DNA of 64,000 bases, from contig NZ_JAUSBV010000005.1 in the NCBI RefSeq assembly GCF_030651915.1, positions 372,001-436,000 on the forward strand, read 5' to 3'. Position numbers and translations under genes: made by a program. The notes beneath the pieces were generated by a model. It ran no database searches and was not told the origin of the DNA. It was given only the letters and a program-made list of their open reading frames with translations. Below, one piece after another: positions 9,233-22,260 of this stretch. Positions within the stretch are counted from its first letter, which is position 1; every line of letters starts with the position of its first letter. Source of the DNA: Parvibaculum sp. GTDB taxonomy: Bacteria > Pseudomonadota > Alphaproteobacteria > Parvibaculales > Parvibaculaceae.

Positions 9233-10165
9233 TTAAAGCCCCAATATCATCCTTGTCGCCGGGCCCGCGATGCCATCGGCAACGAGGCCGTATTCCTTCT
9301 GGAAGGATTTCAGCGCGCCTTCGAGACCCGCATCGAACACACCATCGACATTGATCGCGTAGCCCTCCTTCACCAGCGCCTCTTCCAGGGCGCGAACATC
9401 GGCGCCGGTCATGCAGGGCGTCGTCAGACGCAGATTGCGCGTCGCGGCGTCGACGGCCGAGACGGGCACGGGCGGGCGATAGTCGAAAACGGTCTGGTCG
9501 ATCCGGACGCCGCGCACCGTCATCGGCAGCGCGAGTTGCCAGTTCTTCGTCCCGATCAATGTCTCGAAGGTATCCATGCGGTAGACGGTTTTTCCGAGCA
9601 GCGTATTCGGATGGGTGGCGAGCCAGTTCCGCCGCTCCTTCACGTAAGCCGCAACCCAGGCGCGCTCGCCGGCTGCTGACGGCTGGCCCATTTTCGCCAG
9701 TGTCCGGTCGCGCATGGCACCCCATGAGCCATGGATCGTGCTGTCATAGACGACCGCAACGGAGAGCGGCTCGACGAGACCGAGCTTTGCGGCGGCTTCG
9801 GCCGATGGCCGCCAGAACACACGATCGAAGAAATTGTCCTGCGTTTCCCGCATGACAGGATCGGCGCCGGCGTCCTTCAAAAGGCCGCGAAACGTCATGT
9901 CATTGTCGAGGCGCAGATCGATATCGGCGAGACGCTGCAGATAGGGTTTCAGCGCGCCGGCATAGGCCGCGCCTTGTGCCGCGCAATAGGCCTTGATCAA
10001 CAGGTAGAGATTGCCGCTGCCGAGCGTCGTCTGCGCCATGCCGTAGGTCAGGTGCCCGCTATCGCCGACCAGCAATGTCACGCGGCCATAGTCGCCCTGC
10101 GCGCGGCCGGTCTCGAAAATATTGACGACGGCCTTGGCCGTCTGCTTCTGAAGTTCAGTCAGCAT
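9233..10165 (-). CDS. Chitosanase-like (GH46-type) protein with C-terminal peptidoglycan-binding domain
   Basis: The N-terminal two thirds of this 310-residue protein resemble the GH46 chitosanase/lysozyme-superfamily fold. Glu18 (NIFETG) and Asp35 (VGDSGHLTYG) are spaced like the catalytic Glu/Asp pair of that family, and the repeated SGHLTYG and GSGNLYLLIKAY segments fit. Residues about 240-308 form a PG_binding_1 domain (LTGADVRALEEAL, DGVFDAGLEGALKSFQ). No signal peptide is visible, odd for a wall-active enzyme. It lies between ccmI and ccmE on the same strand with gaps of 74 and 117 bp. The substrate could be chitosan or peptidoglycan glycan; I assign the family by motif, not by alignment. 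Confidence 0.7.
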   Translation of the reverse strand: MLTELQKQTAKAVVNIFETGRAQGDYGRVTLLVGDSGHLTYGMAQTTLGSGNLYLLIKAYCAAQGAAYAGALKPYLQRLADIDLRLDNDMTFRGLLKDAGADPVMRETQDNFFDRVFWRPSAEAAAKLGLVEPLSVAVVYDSTIHGSWGAMRDRTLAKMGQPSAAGERAWVAAYVKERRNWLATHPNTLLGKTVYRMDTFETLIGTKNWQLALPMTVRGVRIDQTVFDYRPPVPVSAVDAATRNLRLTTPCMTGADVRALEEALVKEGYAINVDGVFDAGLEGALKSFQKEYGLVADGIAGPATRMILGL

Positions 10166-19690: not shown

Positions 19691-19721
19691 GCCAAGGCCC
19701 TCCCCTCATGGCGGAGGGCCT
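19691..19721 (+). terminator. Terminator-like hairpin after csp
   Basis: AAGGCCCTCC and GGAGGGCCTT form 10-bp arms around a short loop, followed by TCG and a weak T run. It lies about 45 bp after the csp stop. The upstream ATG of the next reading frame (19708) falls inside the hairpin, supporting the later start of the yihY-like gene. Confidence 0.7.
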
Positions 19722-19755
19722 TTCGATTGTCGGACGCCACGTCTACCATGGCGCC

Positions 19756-21123
19756 ATGTTCGGCTCCGCTTCGCTCATCGAGCGCCTCCACGACCTCATC
19801 TGGGATCAGTCTCTCGACGACCAGAGTTTCTGGCGGCGCACCACGCTTCTGACCGCGCGGATCGGCTGGGCGGTCGTCCGCGAGCTTGTGGGCGGCGCGC
19901 TGAGCCTGCGGGCGATGAGCCTTGTCTACACGACACTGCTGGCACTGGTGCCGGCGCTCGCCATCGCCTTCGCCATCTTCCGTGCCTTTGGCTTCGACAG
20001 CTATATCGAAACCATCATGGCCGACTTTCTGTCGCCGCTTGGCGATCAGGGCGAGGAGATTACCGCGCGCATGATGGAGTTCGTGCAGCGCGTCAATGTC
20101 AATGTTCTCGGTACGGTGGGTTTTGCATTTCTGCTCTACACCGTCATTTCGCTGATCAACAAGGTCGAGTCGGCGTTCAACAGCATCTGGCATGTCGAGG
20201 CCAGCCGCTCCTTTGCGCGACAGTTCACCGAAATCGTCAGCATGGGCATTCTCGGGCCGCTGATCGTCTTGACGGTCATCGGTATCATGGCCGGTGCGAT
20301 TTCCAACAGTTTCATCGGCGACATCGCCGAGTATTGGCTTGTCGTTTATCTGGTCGAGCAGTCGAGCAAGCTCTTGCCCTTCGCGGTGCTGATCGCTGCT
20401 TTCACCTTCATCTACATGATGATCCCCAACACGCGGGTCAGGTTCGATGCGGCGCTTGTCGGCGCTGTTGTGGCGGGTATCACCTGGGGCGCGGCCGGCT
20501 GGACGTTCGCCACCTTCGTCGTCAAGTCGGCACAATATGTTGCGATCTATTCGGCCTTTGCCAGTCTGGTCTTCTTCATGATCTGGCTTTATGCCGCCTG
20601 GCTGATCCTGCTCGGCGGTTGCGCGATCGCCTTCTACTACCAGAACCGCACCTACCTCTCGGCGCAATCGGGCATCAACCCGCTGACACTACGTCAACTC
20701 GACCGCATGGCGGTGCAGGCGCTCCTGTTGATCCATGATGCTTTCGACCGGGCATCGACGCCGTGGACGGAGGAGGCGCTGGCGCGGCGGCTGCATGTAC
20801 CGATGGAAGCGATGGGCGAAATTGCCGGTGCCTTGTGCAATGCCGGGCTCGTGACCTTTTCATCCAGCAATCCGAGCCGCTTTGTGCCAACCCGTCCGGC
20901 CGACAAGACCCGCATCGCCGATGTCATGGCCGCCGTGCGGGCCCAACGCTACAAGCGCCAGATCGATGATGCGACGCTCGCGCACGAGCCGCGCGTGGAC
21001 GCATTTTTCGGCACGCTGGCAGCGCGGGAGTCGGAACTGGCCGGGCCGACGACCATCGCGTCTCTGCTGGCTGCCGAGGAACCCGCTCCGGCCGCCGACG
21101 CCGCCGCAACACCCGGCCATTAA
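19756..21123 (+). CDS. YihY/BrkB-family inner-membrane protein
   Basis: Protein of 455 residues with six to seven membrane helices in the first 300 (for example SLVYTTLLALVPALAIAFAI, VGFAFLLYTVISLINKVE, WILLGGCAIAFYYQNRTY) and a C-terminal winged-helix-like cytoplasmic domain (EEALARRLHVPMEAMGEIAGALC). This fused C-terminal region is common in alphaproteobacterial YihY proteins. The family was once called RNase BN but has no shown nuclease role. I chose ATG 19756 (MFGSASLIERLHDLI) because the 19708 ATG lies within a terminator hairpin. Confidence 0.88.
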   Translation: MFGSASLIERLHDLIWDQSLDDQSFWRRTTLLTARIGWAVVRELVGGALSLRAMSLVYTTLLALVPALAIAFAIFRAFGFDSYIETIMADFLSPLGDQGEEITARMMEFVQRVNVNVLGTVGFAFLLYTVISLINKVESAFNSIWHVEASRSFARQFTEIVSMGILGPLIVLTVIGIMAGAISNSFIGDIAEYWLVVYLVEQSSKLLPFAVLIAAFTFIYMMIPNTRVRFDAALVGAVVAGITWGAAGWTFATFVVKSAQYVAIYSAFASLVFFMIWLYAAWLILLGGCAIAFYYQNRTYLSAQSGINPLTLRQLDRMAVQALLLIHDAFDRASTPWTEEALARRLHVPMEAMGEIAGALCNAGLVTFSSSNPSRFVPTRPADKTRIADVMAAVRAQRYKRQIDDATLAHEPRVDAFFGTLAARESELAGPTTIASLLAAEEPAPAADAAATPGH

Positions 21124-21327
21124 CTTTTTGATTCGTTGTCGAAAATGTTCCGACTCCGCGACAGGCGGCCGTTCGAACGTTGTGACACGCACCGCTTCCG
21201 GCATCGGAAATGCCAGCAATGACGGCCATCCTGCACACTCGATCGTGTGTGTGCCAATTCTTCACACACATTCACTTGACGAGCGCGGCCGGGAGATTCA
21301 GGCTCTCACTACTGGGTTCAACAATTG

Positions 21328-21341
21328 AAAGGAGGTGATCC
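21328..21341 (+). promoter_or_regulatory. Complete anti-SD complement as ribosome binding site
   Basis: AAAGGAGGTGATCC is complementary to the whole 3' tail of 16S rRNA (14 nt). It ends 1 nt before the ATG at 21343, with AGGAGG at the normal 7-nt spacing. Few genes have so long a match. Confidence 0.85.
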
Positions 21342-21342
21342 G

Positions 21343-21453
21343 ATGTCTAACGGTCTGGTGACACCGTTTGCCATCGCCAAGTTTTCGATCTCGACAGAGG
21401 GTCGTATGGCGAGGCAGGTAAGGTCGGCAACTTCCGGGGGCCTTTCTGCCTGA
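21343..21453 (+). CDS. 36-residue ORF behind a perfect ribosome binding site
   Basis: ATG-initiated ORF of 36 codons ending in TGA, starting MSNGLVTPFAIAKFSIS and ending SATSGGLSA. I do not recognise the family. The only strong evidence for translation is the 14-nt Shine-Dalgarno. It has one weakly hydrophobic stretch (LVTPFAIAKF) and several Arg residues. It sits alone in a 539-bp gap between yihY-like and the convergent lipoprotein gene, and a strong terminator at 21576 ends its transcript. It could be a true small protein, or a translated leader of a small RNA. Confidence 0.55.
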   Translation: MSNGLVTPFAIAKFSISTEGRMARQVRSATSGGLSA

Positions 21454-21575
21454 GCCTTTATCCTTTATCGCCGTACCGGTGTCTGGCACGGCGACTCTGC
21501 AATCGAAATAGATGGACGCAAACGGGGCGGTCCAGAGAGAAGACAAACGGACTGCGTCGCTGCCGTTTCCGAACT

Positions 21576-21611
21576 GGCCGCCGCCTCCCTCAGGGAGAGC
21601 GGCGGCCTTTT
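21576..21611 (+). terminator. Rho-independent terminator
   Basis: GGCCGCCGC (21576-21584) and GCGGCGGCC (21599-21607) form a 9-bp GC stem with a 14-nt loop, followed by TTTT. It terminates rightward transcription carrying the 36-codon ORF; about 120 nt of apparently non-coding RNA lie between that ORF and the hairpin. Confidence 0.85.
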
Positions 21612-21662
21612 CACATCCCGCATCATTCGAAGTCGATGTCTCACGAAGGCGGGAAGGTGGCG

Positions 21663-22148
21663 TCAGTTCACGATCTGCCAACTGCCGTCCGGCTGACGGC
21701 ACGCCGTGCCGTAAGCCTGCTCGGCGCGGCCGCCGATATAGACGGTCTGGCTGTATTCGCGGCAATAGCCTGAATTCGACTGGTAGGAACGGCGCGGCTC
21801 GACATAACCGTAATTGCCGCTGTCCGGATTGCGCCACTGCGTCGGCTGACCGGTCTGGAACGCGTTGTAGGACGCATTCTGGAGATACGCCTGATCGGCG
21901 CGGTCGAGACTGCGGCCGATATTGTTGCCAACCAGCGCGCCCACCAAAACGCCGGCGCCGGTGGCCCAGAGCCGGCCCGAACCGCCGCCGATCTGCGAAC
22001 CGGCAAGGCCGCCCGCGACGGCGCCGGCCAGTGTCCCGAAGCCTTCCTTCGGGCCCGTGCCGCCATATCCATAACCGGGGCCGCCCGTCTGGCAGCCCGC
22101 CAGGGCCAAGGCCAGAGTGCCCATGAGCAGAGTGCTTTTGATCGTCAT
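21663..22148 (-). CDS. Glycine-zipper surface lipoprotein (17 kDa antigen-like)
   Basis: Lipoprotein of 161 residues. Lipobox LALAGC puts the lipidated Cys near residue 19. A glycine-zipper segment follows (GTLAGAVAGGLAGSQIGGGSG, then GALVGNNIGRSLDRAD), then a C-terminal domain with YCREYSQTVYIGGRAEQAYGTACRQPDGSW, as in the RT0821/Lpp0805 family of Rickettsia-type 17 kDa surface antigens. The two Cys in the tail may pair. The ATG at 22148 (MTIKST) gives a normal signal peptide; the frame to 22181 adds a polar extension. It stands alone, convergent with the small ORF unit. Confidence 0.85.
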   Translation of the reverse strand: MTIKSTLLMGTLALALAGCQTGGPGYGYGGTGPKEGFGTLAGAVAGGLAGSQIGGGSGRLWATGAGVLVGALVGNNIGRSLDRADQAYLQNASYNAFQTGQPTQWRNPDSGNYGYVEPRRSYQSNSGYCREYSQTVYIGGRAEQAYGTACRQPDGSWQIVN

Positions 22149-22260
22149 AGCTGTACCCCATGTCCTGATTGGGTGATCCAACAGTCACGAGGATAGGAAA
22201 CCGCCGTTGAGCGGACGCTGAATGCGCCGTTCATCCGGCATTCAGCTTGGCGCGGCCGTT

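Follow-up and report, generated by a model that had tools for sequence, protein, structure and literature searches.

A conserved small gene of the CC2171/rreB/rreR kind with an extended Shine-Dalgarno sequence in Parvibaculum

Our analysis concerns a small gene on the plus strand of a 64,000-nucleotide stretch of a Parvibaculum genome (the window). It follows, on the same strand, a gene for a YihY/BrkB-family protein (19708-21123), the C-terminal stretch of which weakly resembles an Rrf2 winged helix (PF02082, E 0.056, below the cut-off). The next gene (21663-22181) is on the minus strand, and a glycine-zipper lipoprotein-like gene and a two-component pair lie downstream on this opposite strand. 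The parts of the small gene are as follows.

21247-21271, plus strand: operator-like imperfect dyad GTGTGTG-N9-CACACACAT, directly upstream of the -35 box and conserved in relatives
21276-21304, plus strand: promoter-like TTGACG-N17-CAGGCT, with TTGACG at 21276-21281 and a GC-rich -10-like box at 21299-21304, identified by alignment and conservation of TTGAC
21317-21322, plus strand: TTCAAC box of the 5' leader, conserved in alignments, with similar boxes in other families
21327-21341, plus strand: extended Shine-Dalgarno (SD) sequence GAAAGGAGGTGATCC, a 15-nt complement of the 16S tail
21343-21453, plus strand: 36-codon open reading frame (ORF) MSNGLVTPFAIAKFSISTEGRMARQVRSATSGGLSA
21468-21494, plus strand: 3' UTR helix H1, identified by covariation
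21518-21525, plus strand: GCAAACGG, possible long-range partner of CCGTTTGC in the ORF (21364-21371), from single-sequence folding
21520-21568, plus strand: 3' UTR helix H2, with a lower part AAACGG/CCGTTT and an upper part GCGGTCC/GGACTGC
21576-21611, plus strand: terminator-like hairpin H3 and T-tract, with pairing conserved in relatives

The ORF (ATG 21343 to TGA 21453) and the roughly 120 untranslated nucleotides after it (122 nt, 21454-21575) are as a first-pass annotation of this DNA had described them. That annotation also gave the ORF a strong terminator of its own; the GC-rich hairpin (21576-21607) is present and conserved, but is followed by four T only (TTTT, 21608-21611). A consensus promoter scan and a terminator scan of this place found neither signal, so both rest on conservation: the -35 box and hairpin H3 are conserved in relatives, and TTGAC lies within positions -85 to -45 in 26/26 copies (reversed control 0/26). 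The -10 box of the window copy is poor and far from TATAAT. The promoter stretch 21276-21302 has a second match in the genome (27 bases, 93%) at L002 (G000:C9:44959-44985), where a quick look did not find the same spelling of the -35 and -10 boxes. Upstream of the -35 box, the right half of the dyad (CRCAYACA) keeps a constant offset from TTGAC in 21/26 copies and the left half (GTRTG) is found in 14/26; at one mismatch or fewer, a scan of both strands of the genome finds the dyad pattern at 21247-21271 only. The count of AAC boxes was kept out of the evidence, its control being poor (CAACAA contains CAA). The gene is presumably transcribed. No Rfam family reached its gathering cut-off in a scan of the whole window, which rules out a riboswitch or known RNA at the Rfam cut-offs, and a tRNA/tmRNA scan found none.

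The extended SD sequence GAAAGGAGGTGATCC makes 15 contiguous Watson-Crick matches to the 16S tail of its own genome (locus L032, which we take to be the 16S end), and G21342 can contribute one G-U pair beyond these. The 14-nt complement reported in the first-pass annotation is therefore real and one nucleotide longer than stated. Within the whole genome the 13-mer AAAGGAGGTGATC occurs at two places, the small gene and the 16S end, and the calculated energy of the SD:anti-SD duplex is -29.7 kcal/mol, against -11.2 kcal/mol for a made-up AAGGAGG control. The GGAGG core lies at an ordinary distance from the start codon (7 nt), and the spacer between them is itself complementary to 16S rRNA. Of 192 elements measured, 179 match the 16S tail of the window genome without interruption over 15-17 bases. 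The base 5' of GAAAGG is the A that would extend the pairing in 12/181 elements; the complementarity stops at the same base, and pairing with the 16S precursor past its mature end is not supported.

The way in which the sequence drifts points in the same direction. Among the places matched by a class-wide search pattern (below), 33 are altered within the 15-nt SD, and changes were counted as family-level events. Over all 15 positions there are 19 changes that keep pairing (A>G or C>T), 7 transitions that break it and 8 transversions (p 0.006). The last base accounts for six of the eight transversions, and the first for six of the seven breaking transitions, G1 becoming A in 6 families. Positions 2-14 show 13 pairing-keeping changes (A>G), one breaking transition and one transversion (one-sided p 0.0003), and the start-proximal positions 10-15 show 15, one and six, respectively (p 0.0003). 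As read from these substitutions, pairing with 16S rRNA is under selection, and the extended SD changes mostly by steps that preserve it.

The gene is real and conserved. A search with a 381-base stretch of the locus gave matches in 48 of 81 genomes, its own included, the longest nearly full-length and the shortest cores of 22-43 bases, a few of them at other places of the query. The ORF is present in 25 of the 27 genomes of the genus; in the remaining two (L029, L030) the contig ends before the start region. Two genomes of a sister genus carry the element (L024, L026), and a metagenome-assembled Parvibaculaceae bacterium (L154) has the same sequence as L014 throughout the part compared. The pattern GAAAGGAGGTGATCCRATGTC, allowing up to two mismatches, occurs in 85 of 385 genomes of the class, at 86 places, and its reversed control in none. 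In a sample of the phylum 78 of 398 genomes match, comprising 76 of 135 Alphaproteobacteria and 2 of 263 others, both of the latter without GGAGG; the reversed control matches 2 of 398. A collection of named genomes gave at least 120 matches, and the 80 titles listed are Alphaproteobacteria by name except for two (L100, L114), which are named Proteobacteria without further detail. Because the search patterns already contain the TGTC start and most of the SD, the conservation of those letters is partly selected rather than discovered. Genus-wide presence, the two places of the 13-mer and the class-wide pattern together reject a chance origin. In other families the 5' module is preserved and the remainder differs (for example MSSEISSLTRKSKRVQGMMEQPSFTS, MSHGSAKGSVQFVGETRR, VSRVILERGVGTVRGAVA and VSYLKRCHLAGIAR), and the sequence of the 3' UTR varies between clades.

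Rfam family RF01867 is CC2171, a Caulobacter sRNA whose Rfam type is sRNA gene. Its model matches the window copy with 34.2 bits (E 1.2e-5 in 501 bases); with a cut-off of 75, the window copy is a relative of RF01867 and not a member by Rfam's rule. The two share the same 5' block (cAAcaAucGAAAGGAGGUGAUCCAGUGUCU in the model, to which CAACAAUUGAAAGGAGGUGAUCCgaUGUCU of the window copy is aligned) but differ in the 3' UTR: the 3' block UuCGaCaAUGGA and the long terminal hairpin are absent from the alignment of the window copy, and the tail of the model falls on the H1 region, where the ACAAUGG stretch is missing. The model exceeds the cut-off in five of 20 scanned loci, each time on an extended-SD element. 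Across the 385 class genomes, 96 have a match to the model at E <= 0.01 and 13 have one above the cut-off; of the 86 pattern places, 77 fall within RF01867 matches, and each of the 13 matches above the cut-off coincides with a pattern place. In 14 control genomes the model matches Caulobacter vibrioides and Deinobacterium chartae, one of the two above the cut-off. Among the articles listed by a literature search, two hold RF01867 and CC2171, both as table entries (PMC11701678, PMC5596092), one being a list of Mesorhizobium sRNAs that includes an RF01867 RNA (PMC5596092), and ribosome profiling of Caulobacter found that most ncRNA regions are not translated and that two earlier 'ncRNAs' are (PMC4117421). 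In a search of a literature collection with few subscription papers, no paper joining CC2171 with rreB/rreR was found.

The window element is presumably of the kind of small mRNA that Hahn et al. are said to have described in 2017 (RNA Biol 14:1353) as rreB in Bradyrhizobium and rreR in Rhodobacter/Roseobacter. These RNAs reportedly carry, just upstream of a small ORF, about 16-17 nt complementary to the 16S 3' end, and rreB reportedly co-sediments with the 30S subunit and has a stability that depends on its start codon. The window gene has this complementarity to the 16S tail upstream of its small ORF and resembles rreB and rreR in being, as they reportedly are, a presumed stand-alone small RNA with an extended SD and a very short ORF. 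The elements with ORFs of 14 amino acids in Bradyrhizobium and 18 in Rhodobacterales found here also agree with the lengths reported for rreB and rreR. Unlike these RNAs, the window gene has 36 amino acids, an AUG start, an unrelated peptide and a different 3' UTR, and pairs over 15 bases and one G-U rather than 17 bases; no peptide homologous to those of rreB/rreR-type elements was found when the clades were compared by eye. We regard the window gene as a divergent member of the CC2171/rreB/rreR kind.

Within the lineage the reading frame is maintained: the ORF has 35-37 codons, the other two frames are closed in 25/25 copies and alignment gaps are of three bases only. Its N-terminal part is also restrained, with a pN/pS of 0.26 in codons 2-12 and 0.93 from codon 13 to the end (25 unique sequences); the low ratio in codons 2-12 could mean a functional N-terminus, and both the length of the frame and its first 12 codons are conserved within the genus. 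For the whole ORF the ratio is 0.72 over the 25 unique sequences and 0.75 in the comparison with the neighbour gene, and in the shifted frames it is 1.10 and 0.90, above the 0.75 of the ORF, so a modest coding signal remains. All of this would be expected if the 36-amino-acid peptide were the product of the gene and the extended SD merely a strong ribosome-binding site. The ratio of 0.75, however, lies above every one of 90 windows of 35 codons in the upstream neighbour gene (0.08-0.70), five further clades, the largest with 39 sequences and the two smallest with only 6 and 7, give 0.73-1.28, and a Pfam search of the peptide gave no match at E <= 0.1; we regard this explanation as unlikely. 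The synonymous sites are at the same time unusually quiet: the ORF has a mean pS of 0.223 and the neighbour gene one of 0.547, the ORF being lower in 231/231 pairs (22 genomes) and below all of the 90 windows (0.421-0.670). Low pS together with high pN/pS shows that constraint on the letters of the ORF at the RNA level is no weaker than constraint acting through the peptide. Beyond a shared Met/Val-Ser, the peptides of the different clades look unrelated when compared by eye. The first-pass annotation looked to the ORF for a decision, holding that an unconserved ORF beside a conserved SD-like element would refute its reading; that situation is found between families, where the peptides look unrelated, but not within the genus, where the length of the frame and its first 12 codons are kept.

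An RNA abundant enough to titrate free 30S subunits, in the manner of a 6S RNA for ribosomes, would make use of just such near-maximal complementarity, conserved by G-U steps, in a gene that looks stand-alone. The element is nearly always present in a single copy per genome (86 places in 85 genomes), which does not suit a sponge, and a sponge would have no need of an open frame; here too we judge the probability to be low.

The 3' UTR is maintained as structure. The predicted fold of the RNA spanning 21308-21615 is better than those of 100 shuffles (z -3.36), and in a covariation test on 22 of the 25 3' UTRs extracted, the 37-pair structure is formed in 92.9% of cells, a figure favoured by the structure having been drawn from the window copy. 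Changes on both sides that keep pairing are found in 20 of the 37 pairs, against 8.5 expected; none of 500 shuffles reaches 20, and slid structures give 7-9. The signal comes from H1 (11/11 pairs, 86% of cells paired) and upper H2 (6/7 pairs). Lower H2 is nearly invariant (0/6), so that covariation speaks neither for nor against it, and the terminator hairpin H3 is paired in 97% of cells (22 copies) with two-sided changes in 3/13 pairs. RNAalifold alone finds the same three helix regions and draws lower H2 differently. A long-range helix between the ORF and the 3' UTR was also considered: in single folds CCGUUUGC of the ORF pairs with GCAAACGG of the UTR in 18 of 21 copies evaluated (of 23) and is low in the other three. 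The full-length consensus fold gives a probability of 0 to this helix and to lower H2, and synonymous shuffles of 18 chosen copies are weak and uneven (mean z -1.10 for all codons, -0.86 for codons 3-12, with L019, L020, L021 and L025 on the wrong side in the latter test); we reject it as a settled feature. A covarying 3' UTR in a family typed by Rfam as an sRNA gene might suggest a trans-acting RNA, whose conserved helices or unpaired stretches would regulate mRNAs by base pairing and whose ORF would only anchor it to ribosomes, but clades differ in the sequence of this very region, and such a role seems improbable.

That the gene is the leader or attenuator of a downstream gene, as a short ORF followed by a terminator-like hairpin could suggest, is barely credible: the next gene is on the minus strand, leaving no co-directional target, and no shared downstream gene is evident by eye in 26 loci. 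For the same reasons we see no leader role behind the 'ribosome-sequestering leader' of the first-pass annotation, although the tight 30S capture it implied fits the sequence. Its other suggestion, a dual-function small RNA and small protein, was of the right kind, as the maintained frame and the covarying 3' UTR indicate.

The gene is probably, as far as its sequence allows a judgement, a self-standing ribosome-controlled small RNA of about 0.3 kb, whose start site would tightly capture the 30S subunit and whose peptide would be secondary. The start site can pair with the 3' tail of 16S rRNA over all of its single-stranded length, and tight capture of the 30S subunit is then to be expected in the cell; the start-codon-proximal half of the duplex would have to melt, so entry into elongation should be slow. 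With a spacer that is itself complementary to 16S rRNA, tight docking followed by melting is the natural expectation, and would accord with what is reported of rreB. It would also be in keeping with the stable 30S-mRNA complex proposed for the extended SD of Flavobacterium rpsU (PMC9976891). The working part of the gene would be the RNA-30S complex and the peptide mostly a by-product; whether a ribosome sits at the start or passes it would set the lifetime of the RNA and the fold of its 3' UTR, and the gene would on this view act as a regulatory RNA under ribosome control. This control of RNA stability or 3' UTR fold by occupancy is a proposal to which we commit ourselves, not a result. Against easy docking counts the SD being predicted to be partly paired: in 27 copies the mean predicted accessibility of GGAGG is 0.38 for the whole RNA and 0.27 for the 5' part, and in the full-length consensus fold part of the SD is base-paired to the end of the ORF.

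A bolder form of this model, possible but doubtful, would make the element a class-wide sensor of ribosome state, with a throw-away frame as gate and the UTR as a switch reporting free 30S subunits. Capture of the 30S subunit at a maximal SD would then decide whether the 3' UTR forms local hairpins or joins the ORF in a long-range helix, and the output module would differ among clades, half of the Rhodobacterales copies showing a significant built-in anti-SD, with the sensor kept. In the Parvibaculum lineage masking of the SD by an anti-SD after the stop codon does not rise above shuffles (mean z -0.46, 27 copies). Rhodobacterales elements (e.g. L086, L113, L140, L152 and L155) carry a near-perfect anti-SD such as CCCATCTCCTT after the 18-amino-acid ORF, with a mean z of -2.08 over 14 copies, half of them below -2, and a predicted GGAGG accessibility that falls from 0.62 for the 5' part to 0.10 for the whole RNA. 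On these predicted folds, the anti-SD is likely a built-in off switch for rreR-type RNAs.

Our results suggest that CC2171, rreB/rreR and the copies in Sphingomonadales, Parvibaculaceae and elsewhere are one class-wide element, and that its conserved part is the ribosome-binding module and not the peptide. What the present analysis adds is a connection of CC2171 to the extended-SD elements, their spread throughout and limitation to the class in the samples searched, constraint at the RNA level with a loose peptide, covariation in the 3' UTR of the lineage, and drift of the extended SD that preserves pairing. A conserved RNA able to pair with the whole 16S tail offers a testable model for how cells might read out free 30S subunits. 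Extended SD sequences occur in other settings as well, and two articles allow a comparison. In Flavobacterium (PMC9976891) an extended SD likewise serves a special, ribosome-state-dependent start, but on the ribosomal protein gene rpsU rather than on a separate small RNA. In Staphylococcus aureus (PMC13009471) extended SD-aSD helices share with the window gene the extension of the duplex towards the start codon, but are used by many genes, whereas in the window genome the 13-mer is confined to this gene and the 16S end.

Several copies depart from the usual pattern. Genome G050 carries two elements of different types, with peptides beginning MSHGS and MSHCH (L039 and L040, in either order), which suggests an old duplication or two subfamilies. 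Among viral contigs the element was found on 6, five of them with host-like peptides (Bradyrhizobium- or VSHC-type); on the basis of these contigs, spread by phages was rejected. On a viral contig, L209, an extended SD (10075-10096) precedes a 71-amino-acid ORF unlike the host peptides, possibly a phage gene with the same start signal. In L056, L136, L174 and L188 the ORF has 56-59 amino acids and includes a cysteine and a hydrophobic stretch resembling a signal peptide; to judge by the predicted proteins, the module in these copies looks as if it had gained a real protein product.
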